Source of the DNA: Pseudoduganella albidiflava | Lineage (GTDB): Bacteria > Pseudomonadota > Gammaproteobacteria > Burkholderiales > Burkholderiaceae_D | Length of the DNA stretch: 64,000 bases | Assembly (NCBI RefSeq): GCF_004322755.1 | Contig: NZ_CP036401.1 | Coordinates: 2,232,001-2,296,000, forward strand | Reading direction: 5' to 3' | Part shown: positions 25,282 through 64,000 of the stretch, one piece after another | Numbering within the stretch: the stretch's first letter is position 1 | How the letters are laid out: each line of letters begins with the position of its first letter | Made by a program: the position numbers and the translations under genes | The notes under the pieces: generated by a model | The model's database searches: none | What the model was told of the DNA's origin: nothing | Seen by the model: only the letters and a program-made list of their open reading frames with translations

Positions 25282-27588
25282 ATGGATAACCTCATGGACC
25301 ATCCCAGCGACAATCCGTCCAACAGCCCGCCGTACAGCCCGCCCGACAGGCCGCTCGAGAGCCCGCTCGACAGCGCTGTCACCGAGCCGGTGCCAGCACT
25401 GCTGCCGGGCTTGCCCGCCGGGTTGTCGCAGGAAGGATTGCTGGCGGCCCTTGGCGGCAGCGACCTGGCGCCGCGCGGCGCCGGGCCGGAGCACGAGCGG
25501 TTCGACGACCTGTACCTGCTGGCACCGGTCGGCGTATTCCTGCTGGCGCAGGATGCGACGATCCTGCAGGCCAACCTGGCCGGCGCCGCCCTGCTGGGCA
25601 TCGACCGCGCCGGCGCGGGGCGGAAAAGTTTTCGCGCCTACGTGGCACAACGCTTCCTGCCGGATTTCGATGCTTTCGCCGCGCGTGCGCTGGCCAGCCA
25701 CGAGCCGGTTCGCTGCGGCGTCCAGCTGGAGCGCGACCGGGGCGACCGGGGCGTGCCCGTCACGCTGCTCGGTTGCGGCACGGCCGGCGCGCTGCGCCTC
25801 ACCGTGGAACCGGCGGAAGGGCGCCTTGCCGCCCTGGAGAAAAGCGAGGAGCGCTTCCGCCGCATCGTGCAGACCGCGCGCGAAGGCATCTGGGAATTCG
25901 ACGCTGCCGCGCGCACCAGTTTCGCCAACCCGCGCATGGCCGAGATGCTGGGCTACCCGGTCGAAGCGATGGTCGGCCGGCCGCTGGTCTCCTTCCTCGA
26001 CGCGGAAGGGCGCTCGCTGCTGGAGCGCAATGTCGCGCGGCAGCAGGAAGGCATGCCCGGGCGGCACGAGCTGAAGTTCATGCGCAGCGACGGCACGCCG
26101 CTGTGGGTGCACCTGACCGCCAATCCGCTGTTCGATGCCGACGGCGGCTTCCTCGGCGCGCTGGCGCTGGCTGCCGACATCACCGAACACCGCGAGTCGG
26201 CCGAGCTGGCTTACCAGCAAGCCAATTTCGATGCGCTGACCGGCCTGCCGAACCGCAACATGTTCCAGGAACGGCTGCGCCACGAGATGAAGAAGGCGCG
26301 CCGCGAGCGCAGTTTCCTGGCGCTGCTGTTCATCGACCTCGACCAGTTCAAGCAGATCAACGACCGCTTCGGCCACCAGCAGGGCGATGCGCTGCTGGTG
26401 CAGGCGGCGGCCCGGCTGGGGGCGTGCATGCGCGCGACGGATACGCTGGCCCGGATCGGCGGCGACGAGTTCGTCGCCATCCTGCCAGGTCTCGGCCACG
26501 TGCAGGATGCCGAGCGGGTGGCGGAGGATATCGTGTCGGTATTGCAAAGGCCATTCGAACTGGCCGGCGGCGCGCAGGGCACGATTTCGGGCAGCGTTGG
26601 CATCGCGCTGTACCCTTCCGACGCGGCCGACGCCGAAGAGTTGCTGCGGCACGCCGACCAGGCCATGTACGCGGCCAAGAACAGTGGCCGCAACCGCTAT
26701 ACCTATTTCACCGACGACATGCAGTCGGCCGCCCAGCAGCGCGCCCGGCTGGCAGTGGACCTGCGCCGCGCCGCCGTGCAGCAGGAATTCGAATTGCACT
26801 ACCAGCCCATCGTCAACCTGAAGACAGGCGTGGTGGAACGCGCCGAAGCGCTGCTGCGCTGGCGCCACCCGGAGCGCGGCCTGCTGAACCCTGCCGATTT
26901 CATCGCCGGCGCGGAATCGTCCGGCGTGCTGCTCGATATCGGCGACCGGGCCTTCCGCCAGGCGGCCGACCAGGTGCTGGCGTGGCAGCGCGAGCTGGGA
27001 CGGCCGTTCCAGGTCACCATCAACGTGACGTCGGCCCAGTTGCGCGACGAGGCGCACGGCTGGCTGGGGTATGTGGAAAGCCTGCGGCTGCCGCCGCGCA
27101 GCCTGGTCGCCGATGTGTCGGAAGATATCCTGAACGAACCGGCCGGACATGTGTTCGAGCGGCTCGGGCGCCTGCACGCGCTGGGCATGCAGGTGGCGCT
27201 GGACGACTTCGGCACCGGCCATTCCGCGCTGGCCCAGTTGACGAAGTTCGACATCGACTACCTGAAGATCGACCGCAGCTTCGTGGCCGGGCTGACCGGC
27301 GATTCCGGCGACCTGGCGCTGTGCGAAGCCATCATCCTGCTGGCCCACAAGCTGGGCCTGGAAGTCGTGGCGGAAGGAGTGGAAACGGAAGCGCAGCTGG
27401 CGCTGCTGACCGCCGCCGGCTGCGACCTGGCGCAGGGATATGTGTTTGCGCGGCCGGCGCCAGCGGACGAGTTGCTGGCGCTGGCGCGGCAGGTGCGGCT
27501 GGACTGGTCCGGCGGCGTTGCTGATTCCGGTGCTGGTGCTGGTACAGCTATCGCAAGCTCAGCAGCGAAACCACCCGGTCCCGGTTGA
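25282..27588 (+). CDS. PAS-GGDEF-EAL cyclic-di-GMP protein
   Basis: This 768-residue cytoplasmic signalling protein has a Pro/Ser-rich N-terminus with short DNPSNSPPYSPPD-like repeats (1-50), a PAS-like segment (~70-170) and a canonical PAS/PAC (~185-310, SEERFRRIVQTAREGIWEFD). A GGDEF domain follows with intact RIGGDEFVAILPG (~residue 390), so diguanylate cyclase activity is possible. The EAL domain has AEALLRWRHPE (~residue 520), INVTSAQL, LDDFGTGHSAL (~residue 640) and VVAEGVETEAQL. In the segment normally reading ELTES it has ADVSEDIL, with Asp in place of the metal-ligand Glu, so phosphodiesterase activity may be altered. The ATG at 25282 follows GAGGG. The gene ends 41 nt inside the convergent flagellar gene. 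Confidence 0.93.
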   Translation: MDNLMDHPSDNPSNSPPYSPPDRPLESPLDSAVTEPVPALLPGLPAGLSQEGLLAALGGSDLAPRGAGPEHERFDDLYLLAPVGVFLLAQDATILQANLAGAALLGIDRAGAGRKSFRAYVAQRFLPDFDAFAARALASHEPVRCGVQLERDRGDRGVPVTLLGCGTAGALRLTVEPAEGRLAALEKSEERFRRIVQTAREGIWEFDAAARTSFANPRMAEMLGYPVEAMVGRPLVSFLDAEGRSLLERNVARQQEGMPGRHELKFMRSDGTPLWVHLTANPLFDADGGFLGALALAADITEHRESAELAYQQANFDALTGLPNRNMFQERLRHEMKKARRERSFLALLFIDLDQFKQINDRFGHQQGDALLVQAAARLGACMRATDTLARIGGDEFVAILPGLGHVQDAERVAEDIVSVLQRPFELAGGAQGTISGSVGIALYPSDAADAEELLRHADQAMYAAKNSGRNRYTYFTDDMQSAAQQRARLAVDLRRAAVQQEFELHYQPIVNLKTGVVERAEALLRWRHPERGLLNPADFIAGAESSGVLLDIGDRAFRQAADQVLAWQRELGRPFQVTINVTSAQLRDEAHGWLGYVESLRLPPRSLVADVSEDILNEPAGHVFERLGRLHALGMQVALDDFGTGHSALAQLTKFDIDYLKIDRSFVAGLTGDSGDLALCEAIILLAHKLGLEVVAEGVETEAQLALLTAAGCDLAQGYVFARPAPADELLALARQVRLDWSGGVADSGAGAGTAIASSAAKPPGPG

Positions 27589-28612
27589 TGCCCACCAGGG
27601 CCGAGGTCAGGGCCAGCAGCGACTGGTAGCCCGGTTCGTTGGCGATGGTGGAAAAGCGCGTTGCCAGGTCATCCACGCCGGCCACTTCGATGTCGGGCAT
27701 GGCGCTCTGGGCACGCTGGGTCGCCATGTTCAATTCGCCATGGACCTTGGCCAGCGCCGCTTCCACGTGCGACAGCGCCTGCATCACCTGCTGCAGCGTG
27801 TCGCGCATCGATTCGATGTCGTCGGTGCCCCAGCCTTCGGGTGCCACCACGGGCGCTTCCGGCTCCGCCTTCAGGCGGCTCAGCTGGCCAGTGGGGAAGC
27901 GGATGCCGCTGCCCTGCACGGCGATCGAATCGCGCACGCCGGGCCAGCTGTTCTCGCTGGTGGAAAACACCAGTTCGCCATCGTCGTTCGACGAAACCCG
28001 CACGCCCACCGGGCCCAGGGCCTGGTCGAAGCGCGCGACGATTTCCTCGTCCGACAGGCCGGGCGACAGGTGCACCGAACGCAGCCCCTGCGCGCCACCG
28101 CCGACGGCGACGGCCAGCGTCTCGCGGGCGCCATTGCGCAGGTTCGCCAGCGACATGCCGCGCACCGTAAAGCGCTGGCTGGACGGTTCCGCGCCGCTGA
28201 ACTTGAGGCGCGCATCGAGCGAGCCGCCGGTTGCCTCGCGGCGGTTGCGCCAGGTATCGGCGAATTGCCGCACCTGCTGTTCGAGCTGCCCGTCGCGCAT
28301 CTGGCGCGCCGCCAGCTTGGTGGCGAGGTCGGTCTTCAGCGCGCGCAGTTGCGCGGCGCTTTGTTCGAGGAAATCCACCGCTTGCTGGGCGCTGGAAATA
28401 TCGTTCTGCAGGGGCTGGTCCCAGTTGCTCAGCCCGCGCCGGAGCGGCGCGGCCTGGGTGGGGGGCGCGGCCGAGGCCCCCGGCGCCGGCCCGTGGGCCG
28501 ACGTTTTTCCCTGGGCAGCGCCTGCCAGGCCGGCCTGGTCGAGCCCGGTCGTCGTCGACGCCGACGAGTCCTTGCTGACGCCGGCAGTGCTGGAGCGCTG
28601 TACGATTTGCAT
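27548..28612 (-). CDS. Unknown flagellar-locus protein after flgL (LafW-like by position)
   Basis: This 354-residue protein is unrecognised by sequence. It is exported neither by a Sec signal nor by a membrane anchor. The N-terminus is Ser/Ala/Gln-rich and flexible (1-60), then comes a coiled-coil-like helix (NDISSAQQAVDFLEQSAAQL, ~70-110). A central mixed region follows (LRSVHLSPGLSDEEIVARFD) and a C-terminal helical part (RDTLQQVMQALSHVEAALAK). This alpha-beta-alpha plan resembles axial proteins secreted by the flagellar export apparatus. In Flag-2 loci lafW, a putative hook-associated protein gene, follows flgL. Position and architecture support an equivalent here; sequence proof is missing. 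Confidence 0.55.
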   Translation of the reverse strand: MQIVQRSSTAGVSKDSSASTTTGLDQAGLAGAAQGKTSAHGPAPGASAAPPTQAAPLRRGLSNWDQPLQNDISSAQQAVDFLEQSAAQLRALKTDLATKLAARQMRDGQLEQQVRQFADTWRNRREATGGSLDARLKFSGAEPSSQRFTVRGMSLANLRNGARETLAVAVGGGAQGLRSVHLSPGLSDEEIVARFDQALGPVGVRVSSNDDGELVFSTSENSWPGVRDSIAVQGSGIRFPTGQLSRLKAEPEAPVVAPEGWGTDDIESMRDTLQQVMQALSHVEAALAKVHGELNMATQRAQSAMPDIEVAGVDDLATRFSTIANEPGYQSLLALTSALVGINRDRVVSLLSLR

Positions 28613-31063: not shown

Positions 31064-31154
31064 GACTGATCCGTTGAAGTGGGCCCGCCAGGTCAGGGCC
31101 TGGCGGACTGCGACTTTCTCTTAACTAGTCAAGGCGACTGCGCGCCCCGGGAGA

Positions 31155-31604
31155 TTAAGTCTTTGTGGAAATTTTTTGTGCGGCCGGCTGCGCCGCCGGT
31201 TCGCTCGCCGTGGCCGGCATCGGTGCCGCGGGCGCGGCCGGCGCCTTGGGGAGCAGCTGGCGCAGGATCGCGTCGGCGATGCCGAAGGCCCGCTGGTTCG
31301 CCATCTGGTCGGCCACCATGTTGTCGGCCATGTCCAGCATGTCGCTGTTGATCGAATCCTTGTAGATGCTGTCGTCGCCGGCCAGCTCCTTGGTGGAGCT
31401 GCGCATCTGTTTCAGCATGTGGCCAATGAAGAAGCTTTCGAACTTCACCGCCGCTTCGCTGGCCTTCTTCTTGTACGCGGCCGCCGCCGGATCGGTCTCG
31501 GCGGGCGCCACGGCCTGCGGCAGCACCGAACTGGCTTCGTTCAGGCCGAGCGCGCCGCCGGCCGGGCCGGCGGCGGCGTTCGTGGATACCAAACGCGAAT
31601 CCAT
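31155..31604 (-). CDS. flgJ: FlgJ rod-cap protein, single-domain form
   Basis: This 149-residue protein contains only the rod-binding domain of FlgJ: KFESFFIGHMLKQMRSSTKE and DMADNMVADQMANQRAFGIA. It ends in a Pro/Ala-rich tail (LLPKAPAAPAAPMPA). Enteric FlgJ is ~313 residues with a C-terminal glucosaminidase, which is missing here; a separate gene at 40936-41712 carries that domain. The start at 31604 overlaps the flgI stop by 1 nt (TGATG), which sets the choice over the longer open frame. It caps rod assembly in the periplasm. Confidence 0.9.
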   Translation of the reverse strand: MDSRLVSTNAAAGPAGGALGLNEASSVLPQAVAPAETDPAAAAYKKKASEAAVKFESFFIGHMLKQMRSSTKELAGDDSIYKDSINSDMLDMADNMVADQMANQRAFGIADAILRQLLPKAPAAPAAPMPATASEPAAQPAAQKISTKT

Positions 31605-32710
31605 CAGATCACCACCAGTTCGCCTTCGATGGCGCCGGCCTGGTCGAGTGCCTGCAGGATCGCCATGATGTCGTCCGGCGTGGCGCCCAGGCTGTTCACC
31701 GTGTCGACGATGGTCTGCAGCTTGGCGCCCGGCGGCCACTGGAACATCGGGCGGCCGCCCTGGTCCACCGACACGTTCGATTGCGGCGTGACGGCGGTCT
31801 GTCCGCCGGACAGCGGGCCCGGCTGGCTGACCTTCGAGCTTTCCGAGATCACCACCTTCAGCGAGCCGTGCGTGACGGCGGCCGCCTTCACGCGCAAGCC
31901 CTCGGCGATGACGACGGTGCCGGTGCGCGAGTTGAACACCACGCGCGGATTTTCCTGGCCCGCCTCGATCGCCAGCGCTTCCAGCTTGGCCATGAAGGCG
32001 ACGCGCTGGGTCGGGTTTTCCGGTGCCACCACGGACACGCTGGTGGCATCCTCGGTGGTGGCGATGCCGCCGAATTTCCGGTTGATCGACTCGACTATGT
32101 TGGTGGCCGTCTCGAAGCTGGGGCGCTTGAGCGACAGGCGCACCGCGCCGGCGGTCGAGAAATCGGTGGGGATTTCCCGTTCGATCATCGCGCCGTTGGG
32201 AACGCGGCCCGCGGTCGGGGTGTTGACCGTCACGGACGAGCCGCTCTTGCCGGCCGCCGACAGGCCGCCGACCACCACGTTGCCCTGCGCCAGCGCATAG
32301 ACTTCGTTGTCGGCCGCGCGGAGCGGCGTCAGCAGCAGGGCGCCGCCGCGCAGCGATTTCGCATCGCCCAGCGACGAGACGGTGATGTCGATCGCCTGGC
32401 CGCGGCGGTAGCCGGGCGGGAACACCGCCGACACCATCACGGCGGCCACGTTCTTGCTCTTGGCATCGGCGCCGTCGGGCATTTTCACGCCGAACTGCTT
32501 GAGCATGTTGACCACCGACTGGCTGGCGAACTTCACCTGGGTGGAGTCGCCGCTGCCGTTCAGGCCCACCACGAGGCCGTAGCCGACCAGCGGGTTTTCA
32601 CGCACGCCCTCGATCGAGACCAGGTTGCGCAGCGCCTGGGCCGCCTGCGCGGGTACGGCGGCCAGCGCGAGCGCGCCCACGGCCATCAGTGAAGCAAGGA
32701 ATTTTTTCAT
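31604..32710 (-). CDS. flgI: Flagellar P-ring protein FlgI
   Basis: This 368-residue P-ring subunit has a Sec signal peptide ([20 protein letters not shown], cleavage near AQA). It carries hallmark sequences [20 protein letters not shown] (~residues 31-50), [20 protein letters not shown] (~residue 105) and the C-terminal [20 protein letters not shown]. The length equals that of E. coli FlgI. It forms the periplasmic bushing with peptidoglycan. It is located 8 nt after flgH. Confidence 0.96.
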
Positions 32711-32718
32711 CGGTGTCC

Positions 32719-33390
32719 TCAGAACGGCATCAGGGGGCCGAGGAAGAAGCGCTGCAGCCAGCCCGGCTGGTTGGTGTCGGCCAGCGTGCCCTGCGCCGAG
32801 TAGGCGATGCGCGCGTTGGCGATGCGCTGCGACGACACCTGGTTGTTGGCATCGATGTCGGCGGCGCGCAGGTAGCCGCGCAGGCGCAGGAATTCCTCGC
32901 CCTGGTTCAGCGTGACACCCTTTTCACCGGCCACTTTCAGCAAGCCGTTCGGCATCACTTCCTGCACGATCACGGTGATCGCGCCGGTCAGCGCATTTTG
33001 CTGGGTGGCGGTGGCGTCGCCCTGGAACGAGTGGCCCGCCGACAGGTCGATGCCCGCCTTCGGGAACGTCTTGCCGAGCAGTGCGGGCGGCGTGACGGAA
33101 ATGCCGGAATCCTTGCCCAGCTTGGTGCCGGCGCTCTTCGAGGCTTGCGTGGTTTCCTGCAGGATCACGGTGACCACGTCGCCGACGCGGAAGGCGCGGC
33201 TGTCCGAGGTCAGCGACAGGCCGGCATCGGCGGAGAACACGCCGCCCGACGTACCGCGCGGCGCGGCAGAACGTACCACCTGCGGCGGTTCGTCGAACGG
33301 GCCGGGACGCACGGCGGGAGGGGCGAGAGTGGAAGCGCAACCGGCCAGCAGCATCGCGGCCATTGCGCACAGTGGCGCTTTGATCATCAA
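32719..33390 (-). CDS. flgH: Flagellar L-ring lipoprotein FlgH
   Basis: This 223-residue outer-membrane lipoprotein forms the L ring. It has a lipoprotein signal with lipobox LAGC (Cys at residue 18), then [20 protein letters not shown] with [17 protein letters not shown], and the C-terminal half [20 protein letters not shown] and [20 protein letters not shown], all strong FlgH signatures. Two adjacent Met codons make the start uncertain by one residue. It follows flgG by 27 nt. Confidence 0.96.
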
Positions 33391-33417
33391 ACGGTACTTT
33401 CGTGTCGGTGAAAGAAA

Positions 33418-34209
33418 TCAGCGGGCGGCTTGCGCCAGGTACTGCAGCATGTTGTCGGCGGCCGACAGCACCTTCGTGTTCATTTCATAGGTACGTTGCG
33501 CGGCGATCATGTCGACCATTTCCTCGACCACCTGCACGTTCGACGCTTCCAGCGCGCCCTGCTTGATCTTGCCGAACTGGGCATCGCCCGGGCGGCCTTC
33601 CGTCGCCGCGCCGGACGAGGCGGTTTCCGAGAACAGGTTTTCGCCCAGCGCCTGCAGGCCGGCCGGATTGATGAAGGTGGTCAGCGTCAGCTGGCCCAGT
33701 TCGGTCGGCTGGGTATTTCCGGGGATCGTTGCGGTGACGGTGCCGTTCTCGCCGATCGTGATCGACGTGGCGTTGTTCGGCACGGTGATCTGCGGCACCA
33801 GGGGCAGGCCCTGTGCGTTGATCAGCACGCCGTTGGCGTCCAGGCCCAGCTGGCCGGCGCGGGTGAACGCCGCTTCGCCGTTCGGGCGGCGCACCTGCAG
33901 GAAACCGTTGCCCATCACGGCCACGTCGTACTGGTTGCTGGTGATCTGGGTGCTGCCGGTGGTGAACACCTTCTGGGTGCCGACGATGTTGGTACCGTTA
34001 CCCAGCTGCACGCCGGTCGGCGCCAGCGTGTTGTTGTCGGCACGCTGCGCGCCCGGCTGGCCTTCGACCGAGTAGAACAGGTCTTCGAAGACCACGCGGT
34101 CCTTCTTGAAGCCGACGGTGTTGGCGTTGGCCAGGTTGTTGGCGATGGCTTGCAGCTTGGCGTCCTGCGCTTGCACGCCGGTCTTGCTGATCCACATTGC
34201 TGGATTCAT
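33418..34209 (-). CDS. flgG: Flagellar distal rod protein FlgG
   Basis: This 263-residue distal rod subunit has the N-terminal rod/hook motif WISKTGVQAQDAKLQAIANN and NLANANTVGFKKDR, a central QITSNQYDVAVMGNGFLQVR, and the C-terminal LEASNVQVVEEMVDMIAAQR with YEMNTKVLSAADNMLQYLAQ. Length and motifs are normal. A start four codons downstream (MWISKTG) is an alternative. The gene is separated from flgF by 472 nt that contain repeat copy B, which is unusual inside a flg operon, so it may need its own promoter. Confidence 0.96.
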   Translation of the reverse strand: MNPAMWISKTGVQAQDAKLQAIANNLANANTVGFKKDRVVFEDLFYSVEGQPGAQRADNNTLAPTGVQLGNGTNIVGTQKVFTTGSTQITSNQYDVAVMGNGFLQVRRPNGEAAFTRAGQLGLDANGVLINAQGLPLVPQITVPNNATSITIGENGTVTATIPGNTQPTELGQLTLTTFINPAGLQALGENLFSETASSGAATEGRPGDAQFGKIKQGALEASNVQVVEEMVDMIAAQRTYEMNTKVLSAADNMLQYLAQAAR

Positions 34210-34681
34210 ACGATGCTCCTGAGTGTGTTCTGTGTGCCGGGAAACTTTACCCGGTTACGACAATCCGTACGGCAACTTTAGTGCCGCGTGGAAAAACCTG
34301 TCGCACGGCAGGCGACGGTGTTGTATGGGGACGTCAAAGCGGTGACAGCCAACAATGCCGTTTGGTTAGCACACATCGAAGTGCATGCATTCACCCCAAC
34401 GGCGAAGGGCTGGGGTCAGGGAGGAATACTGGCTTGCAGGCCAGTATCGCTACGTCGGCAAGGAGCGATGCTCCTTGAAACCCCGACTACGCCCCGGCGG
34501 GGTGAAGCAGGGGTTTCGCGAAGCATGCTTCGCGCCTGCGTAACGGTCCTGGCATGCATGCCAGGACTCCATCCTGACCCCGGCATTTGCACTAGGGGTG
34601 GGTTCATCCAAGTCGCATCACTGTCAACGTTTTTCTTGCAGTATCTACGGCCGAGATGCAACGCCGGCAGCGGGCAAAAAA
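34210..34681. other. 472-nt intergenic gap inside the flg operon
   Basis: The gap between flgF and flgG holds repeat copy B (34371-34620) and about 160 nt before it. I see no gene. The other flgC-flgL junctions in the operon are 91 nt or less. Possible promoter elements for flgG could not be identified by eye. Confidence 0.6.
34371..34620 (+). repeat. Palindromic dispersed repeat, copy B
   Basis: The arms are in the same orientation as copy A: left 34371-34420, right 34573-34620. The inner block is reversed. Its order is ATACTGGC...GCCAGTAT (34426-34447), CAAGGAG/CTCCTTG (34459-34477), CGCGAAGCATGCTTCGCG (34517-34534), then a 22-bp palindrome around GGCATGCATGCC (34546-34567). In copy A these modules run in the opposite order and strand. 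Confidence 0.9.
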
Positions 34682-35413: not shown

Positions 35414-35425
35414 GTCAGCTCAGCC

Positions 35426-54439: not shown

Positions 54440-54493
54440 GTCGGGTCTTTCGCGGTGAAGGGTGCTGCGGAGAAAGGAATGGCTGGCGGTCGC

Positions 54494-54853
54494 TTACAGC
54501 GGCAGCTTGATGAGCTCGTCGACGGCGCCCATCACTTTGTTGCGAACTTGCATCAGCATCGAGAACGAGAGGCTGGCTTCCTGGCTGGCCATCATGGCGC
54601 CTACCAGGTCGTCGCTGCGGCCGGCGTCGACATCGGCCATTTTTTCACCCGCAGCCTTGTCGGCCGCGTTCACGCTGGAGACAGCGCTCATCATTGCGTC
54701 GGCGAAGCCGCCGGATTGCCCGGCATGGGCGCCGGACTGTGCGTCGAACTGCATGGCCGGCGCAATCGCGCCCGCCTGGCTGGCGAGGTCGGATGCGGCA
54801 TTGGTGAGTGCCGCCAGGTCCGCCTTGATCATGCCGCCGATATCATTTGCCAT
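54494..54853 (-). CDS. fliE: Flagellar hook-basal body protein FliE
   Basis: This 119-residue protein joins MS ring and rod. The conserved C-terminal half contains GFADAMMSAVSSVNAADKAA, VGAMMASQEASLSFSMLMQV and RNKVMGAVDELIKLPL. It is the first gene of fliEFGHIJ. It is divergent from fliM across 547 nt. Confidence 0.94.
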   Translation of the reverse strand: MANDIGGMIKADLAALTNAASDLASQAGAIAPAMQFDAQSGAHAGQSGGFADAMMSAVSSVNAADKAAGEKMADVDAGRSDDLVGAMMASQEASLSFSMLMQVRNKVMGAVDELIKLPL

Positions 54854-55400
54854 CTGCCATCTCCACTTGAATACAACGTTGAACTTCGTCCTACCGCCGG
54901 CGGGGCCGGGGGGGGACAGCAGGAATTGCTACACATCATCAATTCTTGCTGCCGACTTGCTTGTGGGTATCGGTCGCCAGCGCTGCAACTTGATACTCAC
55001 AAAGAAAAACTTCCGATTTTCTCGCTCCGCGTTGGCGGAATTAAAAAGCATGGCCGTTTTAAATGGGTCACTCGGTCGTTATTGGCCAGGAACGTTTAGT
55101 TGCGCTGCGTTGTTTCTCATGTAAGAAACTTGAAATCGTGGCAAAACTCGTTAAAAATCATGCACTAAGCATCAACCTGATTAACTGCCGCTAATTGCTG
55201 AGTAGCAGCATTAATTGACGCCCGACAGAAAGAAGCTTACCGCGTGGCAACAACACTGTAAAGGCCCATTTCAATCGTGCGCGGTATTGATGCGTGGCAA
55301 TACGCAACGAATTCGGTTATGCTACGTGCCCTGCACGGACCCTTCGTGGTGTTCGCGCGCATTTGCGCTACGATGTGGCGTGCAGAGGGAAAACAAGACC
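54854..55400. promoter_or_regulatory. Divergent fliE-fliM intergenic region
   Basis: This 547-nt non-coding stretch is much less GC-rich than its neighbours (especially 54940-55340). It should contain promoters for both the fliE and the fliM operons. An inverted repeat GTTTCT-N6-AGAAAC lies near 55113-55130. I searched for sigma-54 (GG-N10-GC) and sigma-28 boxes and found only one near miss with 11-nt spacing (55089-55103). In lateral flagellar loci the regulator gene lafK lies between fliM and fliE; it is absent here. Confidence 0.6.
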
Positions 55401-56273
55401 ATGACCACGCTGACCACCACCGCACCGCACCAGGTACTGGATCCGAGCCTGCTGGGCCGCCCGGTTCACCGCCTGCCGCACTTCGCTGCCCAGTTGCGCG
55501 ACGACCTTGCCGCCGCGCTGCGCCACCCCGCGAGCCGCCGCTACTGGGGCGGCACCGAGGTCGAGCAGGTTGGCTTCTCGCAGTTGACCGGCAGCGAGCC
55601 GCGCACGCGCTGGCAGTACTTCGCCGCGGGCAGTGGCGTGATCGCCTTCGCGATCGAACGGCCGCTCCTGCTGGCTGCGCTGGACCAGCGCTACGGTGCG
55701 GCCAAGGCCGGCGCGCCCGCACCATCCGCCGACCCCGCACAGGTGCGCGTGACCGCCACGGAAGAACGGCTGAGCGTTGCGTTGGGGCAACAGCTGGCGC
55801 ATGTGGTGGGTTCGCGCATCGCCGCCAGCCTGCCCGGCGGCCAGCCGCTGGCCGCGCCGCTGCCGCCCGCCGCGCCCGCCGCCGGCGGCCAGCCGGGCAA
55901 GGGCACGTGGCTCATCACGATGAATGTGCGCGCCGGGGAACTGGCAGGCAGGGTATGGTTTGCACTGGATAAGCATTTGATATCGGACGTGCTGCATGGC
56001 CTGGCGCCGCAGCGTGAAACAGGCCGGGGCGCCGGCGGGCAAGCGCCGAAGCCGGCGGCGCCGCTGGCGCAGCGGCTGCAGGTGACGCTGGCCGGGCAGC
56101 TGGTCAGCAAGGAAGTCACGCTGGGCGCGCTGTTCGACCTGCGGATCGGCGACGTGATTCCGGTCAGCCTGGACAGGGCAGACGTGATGCTCGAGGATTC
56201 GCGGCTGTACACGGCCGCGGTGACCGAGCACAAGGGAAAACTGTGCCTGACCTCTTTTGAAGACATCGAATGA
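55401..56273 (+). CDS. fliM: FliM/FliN-family motor switch protein, short FliM (LfiM-like)
   Basis: This 290-residue switch protein is a divergent FliM. The C-terminal SPOA domain is clear: AQRLQVTLAGQLVSKEVTLG with ALFDLRIGDVIPVSLDRADV. The middle part has FAAQLRDDLAAALRHPASRR and EERLSVALGQQLAHVVGSRI. The CheY-binding N-terminal peptide of normal FliM (LSQxEIDALL type) is missing, and the protein is shorter than the usual ~330 residues. The ATG at 55401 is preceded by GAGGGA, and upstream sequence is not protein-like. It heads the fliMNPQR-flhBA operon; the stop overlaps fliN. Confidence 0.85.
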   Translation: MTTLTTTAPHQVLDPSLLGRPVHRLPHFAAQLRDDLAAALRHPASRRYWGGTEVEQVGFSQLTGSEPRTRWQYFAAGSGVIAFAIERPLLLAALDQRYGAAKAGAPAPSADPAQVRVTATEERLSVALGQQLAHVVGSRIAASLPGGQPLAAPLPPAAPAAGGQPGKGTWLITMNVRAGELAGRVWFALDKHLISDVLHGLAPQRETGRGAGGQAPKPAAPLAQRLQVTLAGQLVSKEVTLGALFDLRIGDVIPVSLDRADVMLEDSRLYTAAVTEHKGKLCLTSFEDIE

Positions 56274-56650
56274 CCATGATGAACGAAAACGGAAACAACG
56301 ACGCGCTGCTTGACGACACCGAAGAGATGATCATCGAACCGGTGCCCAGCCCGATGGCTGGTGACTTCACCCAGGCGCCGCTCGCACCGCGCCGCGACCT
56401 GCCACAAATGATGCGCAAGATCCCCGTGACGCTGACCCTGGAAGTGGGATCGGCGCGCATTTCCCTGCAGGACCTGATGAACATCGGGCCGGACAGCGTG
56501 GTGGAACTGGACGCGCTGGCCGGCGAGCCGCTGGTCATCAAGGTGAACGGCACCGCGATCGGGCGCGCCGAAGTGGTGGTGGCGGGCGAGAACTACGGGC
56601 TGAAGGTGATCGACCTGGATGGGCTCAATCTCGACATGATGACCTCATGA
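56270..56650 (+). CDS. fliN: Flagellar motor switch protein FliN
   Basis: This 126-residue C-ring protein has an acidic N-terminus (ALLDDTEEMIIEPVP) and a C-terminal SPOA domain: MMRKIPVTLTLEVGSARISL, LQDLMNIGPDSVVELDALAG and INVN-type IKVNGTAIGRAEVVVAG. It starts at 56270 inside the fliM stop (ATGA); a second Met two codons later is possible. fliO, which often follows fliN, is absent and fliP overlaps its stop directly. Confidence 0.93.
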   Translation: MTMMNENGNNDALLDDTEEMIIEPVPSPMAGDFTQAPLAPRRDLPQMMRKIPVTLTLEVGSARISLQDLMNIGPDSVVELDALAGEPLVIKVNGTAIGRAEVVVAGENYGLKVIDLDGLNLDMMTS

Positions 56651-57486
56651 TGCGCGCCGGCGCGCTGGAAACCCGCGCTGCCGGCGCCACACCGGTAACG
56701 CCGCGCCGGGCGTTCGCGCCGCGGGCCGCGCTGGTGGCCGGGCTTGCGCTGGTGCTTGCGCTCATCCTGGCGTTCCTGCTGCCCGCGCTGGCCTTCGCCC
56801 AGGAGGCGAACACGCCCGACCTGCTGGCCGGCGTGGTGCCCGGCGCGCGCACCGACCTGTCGGTGAAGATGCAGATCCTGGTCGTCATGACCCTGCTGGG
56901 CTTGCTGCCCGTGCTGGTCATGATGATGACGAGCTTCACCCGCTTCGTCATCGTGCTGTCGCTGCTGCGTTCGGCGCTGGGCTTGCAGCAGGGCTTGCCG
57001 AACCGGATCATCACCGGCATCGCGCTGATCCTGACCCTGCTGGTGATGAAGCCGATCGGCGACCAGGTGTGGCGCGATGCGTTCGTGCCCTACGACCAGG
57101 ACCGCATCGGCCTGCAGGATGCGCTGCGCATCGCCGAGCAGCCGGTGTCCCGCTTCATGCTGGCCCAGACCAGCAAGGCCGCGCTGCGGCAGATCGCCAC
57201 GCTGGCCGGCGAACAGAACGTGGCGAACCCCATGCAGCACGGTTTCCCCGTGAAGCTGGCCGCCTTCGTGCTGTCCGAGCTGAAGACGGCGTTCCAGATC
57301 GGCTGCATGCTGTTCATTCCGTTCCTGATCATCGACCTGGTGGTGTCGTCGGTGCTGATGGCGATGGGCATGATGATGCTGTCGCCGCTGGTGATCTCGC
57401 TGCCGTTCAAGCTGCTGCTGTTCGTGCTGGTGGATGGCTGGACGCTGACGGTGAACACGCTCGTCACCAGCATCCAGGCGTATTAG
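56647..57486 (+). CDS. fliP: Flagellar export gate protein FliP
   Basis: This 279-residue membrane protein of the export gate has a signal-like N-terminal segment (ALVAGLALVLALILAFLLPA) and a core beginning with MQILVVMTLLGLLPVLVMMM. MTSFTRFVIVLSLLRSALGL follows, then FMLAQTSKAALRQIATLAGE, LKTAFQIGCMLFIPFLIIDL and MGMMMLSPLVISLPFKLLLF, all FliP signatures. The N-terminus before the signal is about 25 residues longer than in E. coli. It overlaps fliN by 4 nt. Confidence 0.96.
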   Translation: MMRAGALETRAAGATPVTPRRAFAPRAALVAGLALVLALILAFLLPALAFAQEANTPDLLAGVVPGARTDLSVKMQILVVMTLLGLLPVLVMMMTSFTRFVIVLSLLRSALGLQQGLPNRIITGIALILTLLVMKPIGDQVWRDAFVPYDQDRIGLQDALRIAEQPVSRFMLAQTSKAALRQIATLAGEQNVANPMQHGFPVKLAAFVLSELKTAFQIGCMLFIPFLIIDLVVSSVLMAMGMMMLSPLVISLPFKLLLFVLVDGWTLTVNTLVTSIQAY

Positions 57487-57505
57487 CTAACCGAAAAGTA
57501 AAACT

Positions 57506-57778
57506 ATGCTGACTCCCGACGTGGCCGTCGACCTGGTGGCCGAGGCCCTGCATATCACGATGGTGCTGGTGCTGGTGCTGGTGGTGCCGGGCCTGGCCGC
57601 GGGTCTCGTCGTGGCGCTGTTCCAGGCCGCCACGCAGATCAACGAACAGACGCTGTCGTTCCTGCCGAAGCTGCTGATCACGCTGCTGGCCATCATCATC
57701 ACCGGGCGCTGGATGGCCGGCTACCTGATGGACTACTGCGTGTCGATCTTCACCCGCGCGGCCACGCTGGTCGGCTGA
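57506..57778 (+). CDS. fliQ: Flagellar export gate protein FliQ
   Basis: This 90-residue protein with two membrane segments reads LTPDVAVDLVAEALHITMVL, VPGLAAGLVVALFQAATQIN and EQTLSFLPKLLITLLAIIIT, the family pattern. It lies 19 nt after fliP and is part of the FliP-FliQ-FliR gate complex. Confidence 0.96.
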   Translation: MLTPDVAVDLVAEALHITMVLVLVLVVPGLAAGLVVALFQAATQINEQTLSFLPKLLITLLAIIITGRWMAGYLMDYCVSIFTRAATLVG

Positions 57779-57787
57779 CCCGCCAGG

Positions 57788-58597
57788 ATGGAACAGGTCC
57801 TCGCCAACCTGCTGCCCCTGCTGAACGCGCTGTGGTGGCCGTTCGTGCGTTCGATGGCGCTGCTGTCGGCCGCCCCGGTGCTGGGCGAGGCGATGGTGCC
57901 GGTGATGATCCGGGTGCTCGTCTCGGTGGCGCTTGCCGTGATGATGCTGCCGGTGACGGGCAAGGCGCAGGTCATCGAGGATCCGTTTACGCTGGCGATG
58001 GTGGTGGCCACCATCGAACAGGCCATCATCGGCTTCGTGCTGGGACTGGCGTTCTATTTCGCCATGGCCGCGATCGGCGTGCTGGGCTTCGTGGTGTCGT
58101 CGCAGGTGGGTTTCTCGATGGCGGTGATGAACGATCCGCTGAACGGCTCGTCGTCGGACGTGATCTCGACGCTGCTGTCGATGCTGTCGATCATCGTGTT
58201 CTTCGCCATCGATGGCCACCTTGTCATCATCGGCGTGATCGGGGCCAGCTTCAAGGCCTGGCCGCCGGGCGGCGCTCATTGGCCAGATGCTGGCCCGCTG
58301 CTGTTGCAGACCGTGGCCTGGAACGTGGCCTGGGTGTTCTCGGCGGCGATGCTGCTGGCCATCCCGGTGGTGTTCTCGACGGTGGTGGTGCAGATCGGCT
58401 TCGGCTTCCTGAACCGCGTGGCGCCGTCGCTGAACCTGTTCTCGCTGGGTTTTTCCGTAATCACGCTGTTCGGCCTGCTGATGCTGGGCCAGCTGGTGCG
58501 CTTCATTCCCGACCATTACACGCGCATGACGAGCCAGGTGCTGGCCATGATCCAGCAGCAGATGACGGCGGAGGAGGCCAGGCGCGATGGCCGATAG
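57788..58597 (+). CDS. fliR: Flagellar export gate protein FliR
   Basis: This 269-residue polytopic gate protein has VRSMALLSAAPVLGEAMVPV near the N-terminus, QAIIGFVLGLAFYFAMAAIG and PVVFSTVVVQIGFGFLNRVA. The last, with its Gly-Phe-Asn-Arg element, is typical of FliR (AQxxFGxxxR position). It lies 9 nt after fliQ. Its end overlaps flhB by 11 nt. Confidence 0.93.
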   Translation: MEQVLANLLPLLNALWWPFVRSMALLSAAPVLGEAMVPVMIRVLVSVALAVMMLPVTGKAQVIEDPFTLAMVVATIEQAIIGFVLGLAFYFAMAAIGVLGFVVSSQVGFSMAVMNDPLNGSSSDVISTLLSMLSIIVFFAIDGHLVIIGVIGASFKAWPPGGAHWPDAGPLLLQTVAWNVAWVFSAAMLLAIPVVFSTVVVQIGFGFLNRVAPSLNLFSLGFSVITLFGLLMLGQLVRFIPDHYTRMTSQVLAMIQQQMTAEEARRDGR

Positions 58598-59723
58598 CGG
58601 CGACAAGACCGAGAAGGCGTCACAGCAGAAGCTGAAGAAGGCGCGCGAGGAAGGGCAGGTCACCCGCTCGAAGGACCTGGCGACGGCGATCGGTATCCTG
58701 GTCAGCCTGCGCCTGTTCGTATACCTGCTGCCCGATTACCTGGACCACTTCCGCACCATCTTCGCGGCCAGCTTCATCCGCATGGACGACGGCGGCGACG
58801 TGCTGATGAACGCGATGTCGGACGTCTTCTACGAATCGAGCATCCTGCTGGTCAAGATGGTGGCGCCGCTGTTCGTGGTGCCCCTGTTCATCGTGCTGTC
58901 GTCGATGCTGCCGGGCGGCTGGATGTTCAGCACGAAGAACCTGATGCCGAAGTTCTCCAAGATGAATCCCGTGTCGAACCTGGGCCGGCTGTTCGGCGGC
59001 AAGGCCATGTTCGAGCTGGGCGTGTCGATCGTCAAGGTCGGCATCCTGATCGCCGTGCTGGTGCACATGGCGCGCTCCACGCTGAACCAGTACACGCAGC
59101 TGCAGGCGCTGCCGATGCAGCGGGCGATGACCGAAGGCGCCGCGCTGATGCTCGATGGCGTGATGTCGATGGTGGTGATCTTCATCCTGTTCGCCGTGAT
59201 CGACGTGCCGGCGCAGGCGTTCTTCTTCGCCAAGAACCAGCGCATGAGCAAGCAGGACCTGAAGGAAGAGCACAAGAGCAGCGAAGGGCGCCCCGAAGTG
59301 AAGGGGCGCATCCGCCAGCTGCAGCGGGCCATGTCGCAGCGCGCCGCGCGCAAGACGGTACCGACCGCCGACGTGGTGATCGTCAACCCGGAACACTATG
59401 CGGTCGCCCTGAAGTACGACGACAAGCGCGCCGAGGCGCCGTTCGTGGTCGCCAAGGGCGTCGACGAACTGGCGCAGTACATCCGCCTGATCGCCGAGGA
59501 GCACGATATCGAGGTGCTGCGCCTGGCCCCGCTGGCGCGCGCCATCTACAATACGGCCCAGGTCAACCAGCAGATTCCCGTGCCGCTGTACCAGGCGGTA
59601 TCGCAGGTGCTGCACTACGTGTTCCAGATGAAGGCTTTCCGTACCGGCGGCCGCCAGGCCCGCCCCGACTTCCCCGACCAGATCGTGGTACCAACATCGA
59701 TGAGTGAGGCTTCGCAGACATGA
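58587..59723 (+). CDS. flhB: Flagellar export switch protein FlhB
   Basis: This 378-residue protein selects export substrates. The N-terminus (GDKTEKASQQKLKKAREEGQ with VTRSKDLATA) precedes four membrane segments and then MSKQDLKEEHKSSEGRPEVK. The autocleavage site is NPEH at residues 267-270; Thr of the commoner NPTH is Glu here, but the cleaved Asn-Pro bond is kept. The final region YIRLIAEEHDIEVLRLAPLA is typical. The stop overlaps the flhA start by 4 nt. Confidence 0.96.
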   Translation: MADSGDKTEKASQQKLKKAREEGQVTRSKDLATAIGILVSLRLFVYLLPDYLDHFRTIFAASFIRMDDGGDVLMNAMSDVFYESSILLVKMVAPLFVVPLFIVLSSMLPGGWMFSTKNLMPKFSKMNPVSNLGRLFGGKAMFELGVSIVKVGILIAVLVHMARSTLNQYTQLQALPMQRAMTEGAALMLDGVMSMVVIFILFAVIDVPAQAFFFAKNQRMSKQDLKEEHKSSEGRPEVKGRIRQLQRAMSQRAARKTVPTADVVIVNPEHYAVALKYDDKRAEAPFVVAKGVDELAQYIRLIAEEHDIEVLRLAPLARAIYNTAQVNQQIPVPLYQAVSQVLHYVFQMKAFRTGGRQARPDFPDQIVVPTSMSEASQT

Positions 59724-61810
59724 ATTTCCTGAACTCCCTGGTGGCCGAACTGCGCCGCCACAAGTTCGCCACGCCGCTGTTCGTGATGTCCATCCTCGCG
59801 ATGATCATCCTGCCGCTGCCGCCGATCCTGCTCGACGTGCTGTTCACCTTCAACATCGTGCTGTCGCTGATCGTGATCCTGGTCTCGGTGCAGGCCAAGC
59901 GGCCGCTGGACTTCTCGGTGTTCCCCACCGTGATCCTGCTGACCACGATGCTGCGGCTGACGCTGAACGTGGCGTCCACCCGCGTGGTGCTGCTGCATGG
60001 CCACGAGGGCACGCATGCCGCCGGCGCGGTGGTCGAAGCATTCGGCAACGTCGTCATCGGCGGCAATTTCGTGGTCGGCCTGGTGGTGTTCGTGATCCTG
60101 ATGATCATCAACTTCGCCGTCGTCACGAAAGGCGCCGAGCGGATCTCGGAAGTGTCGGCGCGCTTTACCCTCGATGCGCTGCCCGGTAAGCAGATGGCCA
60201 TCGACGCCGACCTGAACGCGGGCCTGATCAACCAGGAAAAGGCCCAGCTGCGCCGCAAGGAAGTGGCGATGGAAGCCGATTTCTACGGCGCCATGGACGG
60301 CGCCTCCAAATTCGTGCGCGGCGATGCGATCGCCTCGATCCTGATCCTCATCATCAACCTCGTCGGCGGCGTGGCGATCGGTTCGATCATGCAGGGCATG
60401 GGCTTCGGCGACGCGTTCCGCCAGTATGCGCTGCTGACGATCGGCGACGGCCTGGTGGCGCAGATCCCGGCCCTGCTGCTGTCGGCCGCGGCGGCGATCA
60501 TCGTTACCCGCGTGTCGGACGCGGGCGACTTCGAGGAGGAAGTCAGCATCCAGCTGCTGGCCAATCCGAGCGTGCTGTACTCTGCCGCCGGCCTGATGGT
60601 CATCATGGGCGTCGTGCCCGGCATGCCATGGCTGCCGTTCCTGTCGTTCGCCGGTGCGCTGGCCTATGTGGGCTGGCGCATGCAGCAGCGCGCCGTGGCG
60701 CCGCCCGACACCCGGCAGCTGGAAGCCATCGAGGCCGTGCTGCGCGAGGAAAAGACCCCGGAACTGGAGTGGCAAAGCCTGCCGGTGGTGCATCCGCTGC
60801 AGGTCATGCTGGGTTATAAACTCGTCGGCCTGGTCGACAAGGCGCATGGCGAGGTACTGACCAAGCGCGTGCGGGGCGTGCGGCAAAGCCTGTCGGAGGC
60901 GATGGGCCTGGTGCTGCCGCCGATCGGCGTGCGCGACGACCTGGGCCTGAAGCCGTCGCAGTACTCGGTGGTGCTGGGCGGCGCCGTGATCGCCCAGGCC
61001 GAAGTGTTCCCCGACCGGCTGATGGCGATCCCGTCGCCGAACCTGTATGGCCAGATCGATGGCATTCCCGGCGTGGAACCGGCCTACGGCATGCCCGTCG
61101 TCTGGATCGAGCCGGGCGACAAGGCGCAGGCGCTGGGGCTGGGCTACCAGGTGGTGGAAGCACCCAGCGCGATCGCCACGCACCTGTCGAAACTGGTCCG
61201 CGAATACCTGCCCGAGCTGTTCCGGCACGACGACGTGGCCGCCGTGCTCGAACGCCTCACCGCGCTGGCGCCGAAGCTGGGCTCCGCACTGGACAAGGCG
61301 ATGACCCACACGCAGCTGCTGCGCGTGTTCCGCGTGCTGCTGGCCGAGAACGTGTCGCTGAAGGATATCGTGCCGATCGCCACCACCCTGCTGGACAGTG
61401 CGGAAACCACCAAGGATCCGATCCTGCTGGCGGCCGAGGTGCGCTGCGCGCTGCGGCGCCAGATCGTCGCCGCGCTGTTCGGCCAGCGCAAGGAATTGCT
61501 GGCCTTTAACCTGGGCGGGGAACTGGAGAACATGCTGCTGGGTTCGCTGAACCAGGCGCGCCAGTCCGGCAAGGTGGTGCTCGACAATTATCCGATCGAT
61601 CCGCACCTGCTGGGCCAGCTCCAGGTGAACATGCCGGTCGCGCGCGAGCAGATGAAGCAGCAGGGCACGCCGCCGCTGCTGCTGGTGCTGCCGCAGATCC
61701 GGCCGCTGCTGGCCCGCTACGCCCGGCTGTTCGCCCCCGGCCTGCATGTGCTGTCGTATAACGAAATCCCGGAGAACCGCGAAGTGTCGATCATCGGCAC
61801 GGTCGGGTGA
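59720..61810 (+). CDS. flhA: Flagellar export protein FlhA
   Basis: This 696-residue protein is the largest export gate component. The membrane part (1-~310) carries RPLDFSVFPTVILLTTMLRL and LNVASTRVVLLHGHEGTHAA, then AERISEVSARFTLDALPGKQ with MAIDADLNAGLINQEKAQLR, the FHIPEP signature region. The cytoplasmic part ends with LPQIRPLLARYARLFAPGLH and NEIPENREVSIIGTVG. The length is normal. It is the last gene of the fliMNPQR-flhBA operon; repeat copy C follows. Confidence 0.97.
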   Translation: MNFLNSLVAELRRHKFATPLFVMSILAMIILPLPPILLDVLFTFNIVLSLIVILVSVQAKRPLDFSVFPTVILLTTMLRLTLNVASTRVVLLHGHEGTHAAGAVVEAFGNVVIGGNFVVGLVVFVILMIINFAVVTKGAERISEVSARFTLDALPGKQMAIDADLNAGLINQEKAQLRRKEVAMEADFYGAMDGASKFVRGDAIASILILIINLVGGVAIGSIMQGMGFGDAFRQYALLTIGDGLVAQIPALLLSAAAAIIVTRVSDAGDFEEEVSIQLLANPSVLYSAAGLMVIMGVVPGMPWLPFLSFAGALAYVGWRMQQRAVAPPDTRQLEAIEAVLREEKTPELEWQSLPVVHPLQVMLGYKLVGLVDKAHGEVLTKRVRGVRQSLSEAMGLVLPPIGVRDDLGLKPSQYSVVLGGAVIAQAEVFPDRLMAIPSPNLYGQIDGIPGVEPAYGMPVVWIEPGDKAQALGLGYQVVEAPSAIATHLSKLVREYLPELFRHDDVAAVLERLTALAPKLGSALDKAMTHTQLLRVFRVLLAENVSLKDIVPIATTLLDSAETTKDPILLAAEVRCALRRQIVAALFGQRKELLAFNLGGELENMLLGSLNQARQSGKVVLDNYPIDPHLLGQLQVNMPVAREQMKQQGTPPLLLVLPQIRPLLARYARLFAPGLHVLSYNEIPENREVSIIGTVG

Positions 61811-62073: not shown

Positions 62074-63114
62074 TCAACGCCCGGCGCCTGATGCGGCGAT
62101 GAACTGATCGTCCGAACGCTGCGGTTGCGACAGCAGCACCGCCACTTCGGCCATGGCCCGGAACACTGGCGCCGTCAGCGCGGCGAGCTGGTGGCGCTCC
62201 GGCTGCGCCAGGCCGGGCGGGGGCAGCGCCCGCATCAGCCGCACGCGCAGGATGCGCACGCCGCACCGGCTGGCGATGTTGCCGATCTCCGGCAGCTGGG
62301 CGCGCATGTGCTGCATCGCGCCCGCCTGGGCCGCGCCGATCTCCAGCACCACGCCACCGCCTTCCGCCGGCTCCATCTGCAACACGACCTTGCCCAGCTC
62401 GGGCAGGTGCACTTCCAGCCGCAGCGCAATGCGGGGATGCCGTTGCGCCGGGCCGTCTTCTTCATCCGGATCGCGCGTGACGACGCGCAGGACAAGTTTT
62501 TCGGCGCCCCAGGCATACACGGCGAAGCGCCAGGCATCGAGTTCCGAGACCAGCTGCTGCGGCAGGCTGCCATCGCGCAGTACCTGCGGCACCCCGTCCG
62601 ACTGGAACAGGCTGGCCGGTACGTTGCGGCCCCGCGATTGTGCGGCCAGTGCGGCGCGCTGCTGGCCGTAGGTCTGGATCATTGCCATCCACGAGGCGGC
62701 CAGGGCCGACGGGTCCGGCGCATGCCAGACCATCTGGCGCGACATGAACAGCTGGTTGGGCTGCATCGACGCGGCTTCGGCAAGCACCGCCTGGGCCACC
62801 AGCGTGCGCGCCAGCGCCGCCGGAACCGTAGACCCTTTGCCTTCCATCGCTTCGAGCAGCGCGCCGACGGCACCCGGCAAGTCCACGTCGAACCCGCCCG
62901 GCGCGGACCCGCCTGGCGCATGGGCTGGCTCGTCGTGGACCGCATGGGGATTGACGAACAGCGGGGCGGTTGGCGTCTGCGTGGAAGGGGACGCGGATGA
63001 GGGCGAAGACGAGGGCGGCGGCGGCATCGGCCGCGCCTGGCCCGGCCGTTCGCGGGCATTCCGGTCTGGAATCGTCAACGCCGCGCCGGCGGGGATTACT
63101 CGGTCGATGGCCAT
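62074..63114 (-). CDS. Second FliK-like hook-length control protein
   Basis: This 346-residue protein has a Pro/Ser-rich N-terminus (PPPPSSSPSSASPSTQTPTA), a helical middle part (LARTLVAQAVLAEAASMQPN) and a C-terminal segment like the FliK Flg_hook domain. That segment reads ALRLEVHLPELGKVVLQMEP, VVLEIGAAQAGAMQHMRAQL with PEIGNIASRCGVRILRVRLM, where the Pro-Glu-Leu-Gly element and the following strands and helices match. It has no signal peptide. It lies downstream of the flagellin gene and its terminator on the same strand. It differs strongly from the fliK at 45648, so it is not a recent copy. Assignment is by domain pattern only. Confidence 0.6.
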   Translation of the reverse strand: MAIDRVIPAGAALTIPDRNARERPGQARPMPPPPSSSPSSASPSTQTPTAPLFVNPHAVHDEPAHAPGGSAPGGFDVDLPGAVGALLEAMEGKGSTVPAALARTLVAQAVLAEAASMQPNQLFMSRQMVWHAPDPSALAASWMAMIQTYGQQRAALAAQSRGRNVPASLFQSDGVPQVLRDGSLPQQLVSELDAWRFAVYAWGAEKLVLRVVTRDPDEEDGPAQRHPRIALRLEVHLPELGKVVLQMEPAEGGGVVLEIGAAQAGAMQHMRAQLPEIGNIASRCGVRILRVRLMRALPPPGLAQPERHQLAALTAPVFRAMAEVAVLLSQPQRSDDQFIAASGAGR

Positions 63115-63214: not shown

Positions 63215-64000
63215 TTACTGCAGCAGGGACATGACCAGCGACGACTGGCTGTTCGACTGCTTCAGCATGGCGGTGCCGGCTTGCAGCAGCATCTGGTTCG
63301 ACGTCATCGAAGCCGATTCGGTGGCGAAGTCGACGTCCATGATGCGGCCGGCGGCGGCCTTGGTGTTGGTCGAGATGTTCGACAGGTTGCTGTTCACGTG
63401 GTCCAGGCGGTTCGACACGGCACCGATCTTCGAGCGCAGGGCCGAGACGGAATCGATCGCGGTGGCCAGCTTCGAGATGGTAGCGTTGGCTGCGCCGGTC
63501 AGTTCGGTGCCCACGCCGCCAGGTACGGCGTTGTCGGCGCTGAAGCGGGCGGAGACGCTGCCGATACCCGAGTTGGCATCGGTGGCGGTACCCAGTTCGG
63601 TGGTGAAGTCGGCATCCAGCTTTTCAGCGGAATCGGCACCGATCTGGAACGAGATCGCTGCATTGAGCTTGCCGCCGGTGGTCTTGAACAGTTCCGTGCC
63701 GCCGAACTTGGTGTTGCCGAAGATGTTGGTCAGTTCATCGGCCAGCGAGTCGTACTCGCCCTGCATCGCGGTCTTGTCGGCGGCGGTCGAGGAACCGTCG
63801 GCGGCCTGGGTTGCCAGGTCCTTCATGCGGTTCAGGATGTTGGTCGTCTGGTCCAGCGCGCCGTCGGCGGTCTGCAGCATGGAGATCGAGTTCTGCGTGT
63901 TGCGCATGGCCACTTGCATGCCGCTGGTTTGCGTCTTCAGGCGGGTAGCGATCTGCAGGCCAGCAGCGTCGTCCATGGCAGAGTTGATGCGGTAGCCGGT
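63215..64000 (-). CDS. fliC: Flagellin (N-terminus beyond the window), LafA-like
   Basis: These are the C-terminal 261 residues of a flagellin. The frame runs open to the window end with TGYRINSAMDDAAGLQIATR, the conserved flagellin segment at about residue 40-60, so roughly 40 residues are missing. The second conserved region reads ALDQTTNILNRMKDLATQAA, a short variable centre follows, and the C-terminal helix is KIGAVSNRLDHVNSNLSNIS with ESASMTSNQMLLQAGTAMLK. The estimated total of ~300 residues is short, like LafA-type lateral flagellins. It is secreted with FliS help and probably transcribed by FliA, but the promoter is outside the window. Confidence 0.93.
   Translation of the reverse strand, partial: TGYRINSAMDDAAGLQIATRLKTQTSGMQVAMRNTQNSISMLQTADGALDQTTNILNRMKDLATQAADGSSTAADKTAMQGEYDSLADELTNIFGNTKFGGTELFKTTGGKLNAAISFQIGADSAEKLDADFTTELGTATDANSGIGSVSARFSADNAVPGGVGTELTGAANATISKLATAIDSVSALRSKIGAVSNRLDHVNSNLSNISTNTKAAAGRIMDVDFATESASMTSNQMLLQAGTAMLKQSNSQSSLVMSLLQ

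Follow-up and report, generated by a model that had tools for sequence, protein, structure and literature searches.

Does a long run of flagellar genes in Pseudoduganella albidiflava build a copy of the ordinary flagellum of its host, or a lateral flagellum of separate ancestry? The genes lie in a stretch of 64,000 nucleotides (bases 2232001-2296000 of the single 7.44-Mb contig NZ_CP036401.1; hereafter the window), which an earlier interpretation made from the letters alone (the sequence-only reading) took to hold a self-contained surface-motility flagellum with lateral (Flag-2) gene order. Here, we report that the locus very probably gives the host a second flagellum, of lateral type, alongside a primary set encoded elsewhere, FlhA and most of the compared proteins being of lateral ancestry. 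A lateral-type flagellum is a known kind, partly reported for these genera (PMC5773237, PMC8929069). Less ordinary than the system itself are the lack of lafK, a late-gene promoter-like element of its own, and a conserved open reading frame (ORF), ORF62.

Locus content and lateral ancestry

Profile searches placed the flagellar locus at 27548 to ~64147, in minus, plus, minus, plus, and minus blocks. The start given in the sequence-only reading (27548) stood, and the end (64000) did not: the first flagellin runs to ~64147, so that its start lies beyond the window end, as do flagellins 2 and 3. Rod, hook, export gate, C-ring, cap, and three flagellins are encoded in this one locus, together with a stator (motA/motB), a sigma-28, and an anti-sigma factor FlgM of its own, as that reading had it, and the flagellar ORFs of the window are uninterrupted. 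A chance grouping was considered and ruled out, the single locus holding 35 flagellar genes with their own profile match (NCBIfam/Pfam).

The proposed order fliD-fliS-fliT-fliK-fliL-fliA-motA-motB (lafB to lafU in the lateral nomenclature) was confirmed and equals the annotated order of the Escherichia coli Flag-2 record; the order of the blocks agrees with E. coli Flag-2 as well. fliO is missing, as claimed (fliN and fliP overlap), and no flhF, flhG, or che gene was seen among the ORFs scanned, 12 of which lie in the 27 kb before the locus. flgM and flgN, which had been put beside flgA, are found after motB with a separate glucosaminidase (48% over 137 amino acids [aa] to the primary FlgJ), and the ORF at 27548-28612, rightly counted as part of the locus, is now identified as a LafW homologue, although it matched no Pfam or NCBIfam family of its own. 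fliT, also without a Pfam match, was named from its place, length (~103 aa), and conservation in relatives.

The second flagellar set that the sequence-only reading considered possible elsewhere was found at 1.04-1.09 Mb (~1.037-1.086 Mb). The genes named there are flhB, flhA, FlhF (an SRP54-type GTPase at the usual place), FliA, MotA/B, and flgA to flgL, and also fliR to fliF with FliO, FliS, FliD, and FliT; three long flagellins and a FliK-like protein paired with FhlB complete the list. FlhD occurs once in the genome (1.69 Mb), and four CheA-type dimer domains lie elsewhere in the genome, with none in the window.

In a tree of 42 FlhA proteins, that of the window fell in a clade of 18 (SH-like approximate likelihood-ratio test [SH-aLRT], 100), composed of the window protein, 14 named beta- and gammaproteobacterial lateral copies, E. 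coli Flag-2, Vibrio campbellii, and Vibrio breoganii, and the host's primary FlhA grouped with betaproteobacterial primaries and E. coli Flag-1. A constraint that placed the window FlhA with the Oxalobacteraceae primaries cost 510 log units and was rejected (approximately unbiased [AU] test, p-AU 1e-6). Both findings that could have told against a lateral flagellum, a grouping with primary betaproteobacterial flagella and the lack of a second set, were looked for, and neither holds. The V. breoganii FlhA (L116) is plasmid-borne beside a flagellin gene and sits on a long branch of the lateral clade.

Tree building covered FlhA only; FliF, FlgE, and MotA were compared pairwise. Out of 35 proteins in the annotated E. 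coli Flag-2 record, 33 matched window proteins at an expect value (E) of 0.01 or better, lafD and lafZ being those without a match. The primary set was matched by 24, and the window score was higher for 32 of the 33, 9 of these having no primary match. E. coli LafT gave 54% to the window MotA versus 25% to the primary MotA, and LafS gave 50% to the window FliA versus 33% to the primary FliA. In the lateral cluster of V. campbellii, 18 ORFs found a match; the window gave the lower E value for 12 of them, and 3 had no counterpart in the primary set.

Lateral-type flagella are common in part of Oxalobacteraceae: lateral-type FlhA (1136 bits or more, counted by hand) was present in 148 of 392 family genomes, including 51/55 of the same genus label, and in 3 of 120 genomes of the order. 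Named relatives (FlhA, 72-97% identity) include Pseudoduganella, Duganella, Janthinobacterium, Massilia, Methyloversatilis, Zoogloea, Azoarcus, Acidovorax, and Steroidobacteraceae, with Pseudoduganella umbonata the nearest (97%). Recognized genes stood in the same order in 10/10 relatives of six genus labels (40 kb each, the ORF picker having skipped some genes in every one), with two exceptions: G100, where two flagellins separate flhA from ORF62, and G304, where no ORF62 and no flagellin could be recognized. BLAST found lafW, flgA, the glucosaminidase, flgJ, flgM, flgN, and fliT each in all ten. A second partial lateral flhA copy (G374:C1:1054313-1055290; residues 371-696, 90%) was seen ~2.2 kb after the full one in another genome.

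Predicted late promoters and ORF62

A promoter-like element, YTTAA-N15-GGTCGYCTTG, stands before the lateral flagellins. A pattern search of 33 sources picked out 38 lateral flagellin starts, of which 35 carried TTAA-N16-GTCGNCT, with 66-79 bases from the beginning of the -10 part to the start codon; the three without it are in L063, L070, and L080. The usual sigma-28 site is TAAA-N15-GCCGATAA, and a scan for it returned a single copy in the primary region and no copy in the window. Genome-wide, the exact lateral pattern occurs three times, always at lateral flagellins, and with up to one mismatch there are six sites, four of them in the lateral locus; no flagellar gene was seen near the two one-mismatch sites outside it. 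Sites with up to two mismatches were discarded as background because the reversed control was commoner (70 versus 29).

A weight matrix was trained on flagellin sites of 30 relatives chosen by pattern, with the window excluded and flgK outside the training. The top ranks in 84 kb went to the three window flagellins (45.9, 45.9, and 39.1), followed by sites 163 bases before lafW (19.6) and before flgK (19.2) and then by 6.8; the best score in the 80-kb primary region was 6.3. A lateral-type site precedes flgK in 11/11 genomes (scores, 9.8-27.0), and sites scoring >6 precede lafW in 2/11 (the window and G298) and fliD in 4/11. At 11 other gene heads the scores were negative, the exceptions being fliM in G300 (8.7) and G335 (2.9) and fliE in G298 (3.0). 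Farther afield, weaker resemblances to the element occur upstream of E. coli lafA (5.5) and V. campbellii fliD (9.1), and none upstream of V. campbellii lafA (-6.5) or E. coli flgK (-5.8), lafB (-12.8), and lafW (-8.5). The titles and abstract openings of open-licence papers yielded no mention of a lateral sigma-28 promoter in this group or of ORF62.

Several flagellin genes outside the window locus were recorded alongside. In three Massilia loci, lateral flagellin genes stand in tandem, six in L065, five in L066, and four in L067, and the -10 part of the promoter takes two forms, CGGTCGTCTTG and GTGTCGCCTTG. The P. albidiflava genome has an orphan lateral-type flagellin (G000:C1:6184875-6185786, L172:4875-5786; 46% to the window flagellin) downstream of an apparent transposase and beside apparent carotenoid genes (names from reading), with a promoter-like site upstream whose score of 5.6 is at background level. 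An orphan short flagellin (G000:C1:117503-118315, L173:5503-6315; 270 aa, 33% to the lateral one) has no lateral-type promoter site.

ORF62 was present in 19/22 named loci; no counterpart turned up in the Vibrio or E. coli loci. It is likely a second FliK-like (T3S4/Flg_hook) protein of uncertain role. Flg_hook was matched by 19/22 ORF62 homologues at E up to 1 (best, 1.7e-7), with the window ORF62 alone at 18.9 bits, below the cut-off of 29.8, and in a profile comparison ORF62 matched the FliK-like protein encoded at the primary locus (probability, 92%; E, 7e-7). Matches to the lateral FliK were weak (hhalign P, 0.098 and 0.022), as were the first Foldseek matches, PscP and FliK, and no Foldseek match came under 0.001. 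The tail gave P 9e-4 versus FhlB (probability, 23%) and 0.008 versus FlhB, over 28 columns and uncorrected for the number of comparisons; seven other flagellar families gave P 0.18-0.92. A plain hidden Markov model search put FhlB first at E 0.015 and an unrelated ORF next at 0.021. These values are suggestive of an FlhB-like tail. Alternatively, ORF62 could be no switch protein but an unrelated accessory factor with a small beta-alpha fold in common, a reading that we hold unlikely in view of the Flg_hook matches across its homologues and the match to the primary-locus FliK-like protein.

Regulation, assembly, and alternative readings

A V. campbellii LafK query had no match in the window at E 1e-5 and none in the 22 named loci, for which the fetched stretches reach as far as 10 kb from flhA on each side, contig permitting. 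Against the whole genome it had 17 matches, the best at 46% over residues 118-426 (the AAA+ part) and one full-length at 40%; these look like general sigma-54 activators or receivers, possibly with an orthologue among them. For lafZ, neither the flagellar window proteins nor the primary proteins gave a match at E 0.01, no genome-wide search having been made. According to PMC6993521, lafK, lafW, and lafZ are Flag-2 markers in Enterobacterales. Because two of these (lafK and lafZ) were not detected in those searches, we class the locus as a lateral system of a variant form that lacks LafK and not as an Enterobacterales Flag-2 locus; the Flag-2 gene order of the sequence-only reading stands, but without the regulator LafK this is not a standard Flag-2 locus.

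FliO is often lost from lateral sets (PMC12248157), and PMC8042155 describes lateral motors as non-chemotactic and their C-ring proteins as diverged. The window FliM lacks the LSQxEVDALL-type motif that the primary FliM has, and so do the E. coli Flag-2 FliM and the V. campbellii lateral FliM; without this CheY-binding motif, the motor should not respond to chemotaxis, as in other lateral motors.

From these genes, the following course of assembly can be proposed. Early genes would be switched on by a regulator outside the locus (there is no LafK in the window, and the genome has one FlhD), and FlgM would be exported once the hook is complete, FlgM leaving after hook completion being the Salmonella model. 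The lateral sigma-28 would then act at flgKL and the three flagellins, reading promoters marked by a distinct -10 element, GGTCGYCTT, and ORF62 may help set the export switch or hook length. With a -10 element of its own, the lateral circuit and the primary circuit would stay apart. A bolder version, which we regard as possible but doubtful, combines an insulated, LafK-free sigma-28 circuit that shares no late promoters with a fused switch protein: ORF62, with a FliK-type T3S4 domain and an FlhB/FhlB-like tail, would tune export switching as the lateral counterpart of the primary FliK-like gene/FhlB pair.

Several points weigh against a lateral flagellum so regulated. The lateral FlhA group as named beforehand was rejected in a one-clade test (p-AU 0.0295), because V. 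breoganii, labelled primary beforehand, fell inside the lateral clade on its long branch. E. coli FlgJ matches the primary FlgJ better than the window FlgJ; V. campbellii FliN and FliQ are about equal versus the window and primary sets, and V. campbellii FlhA has E 0 with both, though at 60% (window) versus 46% (primary). The primary proteins had been collected with a crude ORF picker; it passed over some genes, including fliE, fliK, and fliL, and left the primary flagellins uncovered, and some cases without a primary match are therefore empty comparisons. Since LafK, LafZ, and MotY were not found at the locus, textbook regulation is inapplicable. The reading of the promoter element by LafS, the lateral sigma-28, is inferred, as are the lateral filaments and surface motility of the Pseudoduganella locus, and the role given to ORF62 draws on weak domain similarity.

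One alternative, which we hold improbable, is a lateral-type locus that is intact but silent or has a non-swarming use such as adhesion. It would fit the absence of LafK and the account of Burkholderia dolosa, in which a polar flagellin mutant showed no lateral filament and a lafA mutant swam more (PMC5773237); the uninterrupted flagellar ORFs, the spread of lateral-type FlhA through the family genomes, and the conserved gene order and promoter element speak against it. A duplicated primary betaproteobacterial flagellum with laf-like order by chance, which the betaproteobacterial host and the primary homologues of most core genes might recommend, has next to no standing, being refuted for FlhA by the tree and AU test and opposed by LafW and by E. 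coli and Vibrio lateral proteins that are mostly nearer to the window than to the host's primary set. A self-contained surface-motility flagellum is the supported reading, its surface motility being carried over from relatives. Bacteria with two flagella must separate two similar assembly lines, and this clade offers a testable case, with a late promoter element readable from sequence, a LafK-free locus, and a conserved switch-like protein.

Gene map and known systems

Features of the flagellar locus, in window positions
Feature	Position	Strand	Evidence
lafW homologue (hook-associated protein, Flag-2 marker)	27548..28612	-	E. coli Flag-2 LafW at 33% over 144 aa (E 8e-9), which likewise follows flgL
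flgL	28785-29681	-	NCBIfam TIGR02550
flgK	29693-31063	-	NCBIfam TIGR02492
Predicted lateral sigma-28 promoter of flgK	31127..31159	-	Weight-matrix score 19.2
flgJ, rod-binding domain only (ORF to 31739)	31155..31604	-	Pfam Rod-binding 2.8e-6
flgI, flgH, flgG, flgF, flgE, flgD, flgC, flgB	31604..38240	-	NCBIfam and Pfam
flgA, divergent from flgB	38355..39074	+	Pfam ChapFlgA 3.7e-30
Two tandem PEP-CTERM proteins	39215-39880, 40187-40810	+	Pfam PEP-CTERM 9e-8, 3e-8
Separate glucosaminidase (like muramidase half of FlgJ)	40936..41712	-	Pfam Glucosaminidase 3.5e-32
flgN and flgM (anti-sigma-28)	41712..42474	-	Pfam FlgN 2.5e-12, FlgM 6.5e-7
motB (lafU) and motA (lafT), own stator	42480..44331	-	Pfam
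fliA (lafS), lateral sigma-28	44360..45142	-	Pfam sigma-70 regions 2 and 4
fliL, fliK (45648-47018), fliT (~47015-47326), fliS, fliD	45152..49122	-	Pfam; fliT by position and conservation
fliJ, fliI, fliH, fliG, fliF, fliE	49219..54853	-	Pfam
fliE-fliM intergenic region; lafK site in V. campbellii lateral cluster, no such gene here	54854..55400	.	
fliM, fliN, fliP, fliQ, fliR, flhB, flhA (no fliO)	55401..61810	+	Pfam
ORF62, likely second FliK-like (T3S4/Flg_hook) protein	62074..63114	-	
Lateral flagellin 1 (to ~64147)	63215..64000 in window	-	Pfam

The three lateral flagellins are mutually 96-99.7% identical and 52-54% to the V. campbellii lateral flagellin. The tandem PEP-CTERM genes (39215-40810) are probably a recent insertion: at the site after flgA, BLAST found one homologue in G345 and one in G304 and none in the other 8/10 relatives. 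They were dropped as parts of the flagellar machine because only these two and the window, of 11 loci, carry them there. A PAS-GGDEF-EAL protein (25048-27588) directly adjoins lafW, and an IS1595-type transposase ORF lies at 16243-17196 of the window.

Among known systems, the Vibrio lateral system (V. campbellii chromosome-2-like record) is alike in FlhA (60%), 18 matching ORFs, lafBCDEFSTU-type order, no gene between fliN and fliP, and its own sigma-28 and stator; the lateral flagella of V. parahaemolyticus are the Vibrio counterpart. It differs in two ORFs between fliE and fliM, neither of which is here, one a sigma-54 activator read as LafK and the other read as MotY from an OmpA-like match, and in an unassigned ORF between flhA and flagellin, where the window has ORF62 on the other strand. 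E. coli/Enterobacterales Flag-2 shares 33/35 proteins, LafW, the short rod-binding flgJ, and the block order, whereas here lafK and lafZ were not found among the window proteins, flgMN lie behind motB, the glucosaminidase is separate, and ORF62 is present.

Further likenesses are drawn from published descriptions. The lateral flagella of Plesiomonas shigelloides are also without LafK, and their FliAL controls fliC, flgMN, flgKL, and others; Plesiomonas, likened here by description and not by sequence, is a gammaproteobacterium in which the polar regulator FlaK is thought to step in (PMC11242183). Betaproteobacterial lateral systems are represented by B. dolosa (putative lateral) and Janthinobacterium SLB01 (polar and lateral), and LafA homologues have been named in Duganella and Janthinobacterium (PMC5773237, PMC8929069). 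In B. dolosa, the genes are spread over three regions, seemingly without fliL and fliT (PMC5773237), whereas P. albidiflava has one continuous locus with both.

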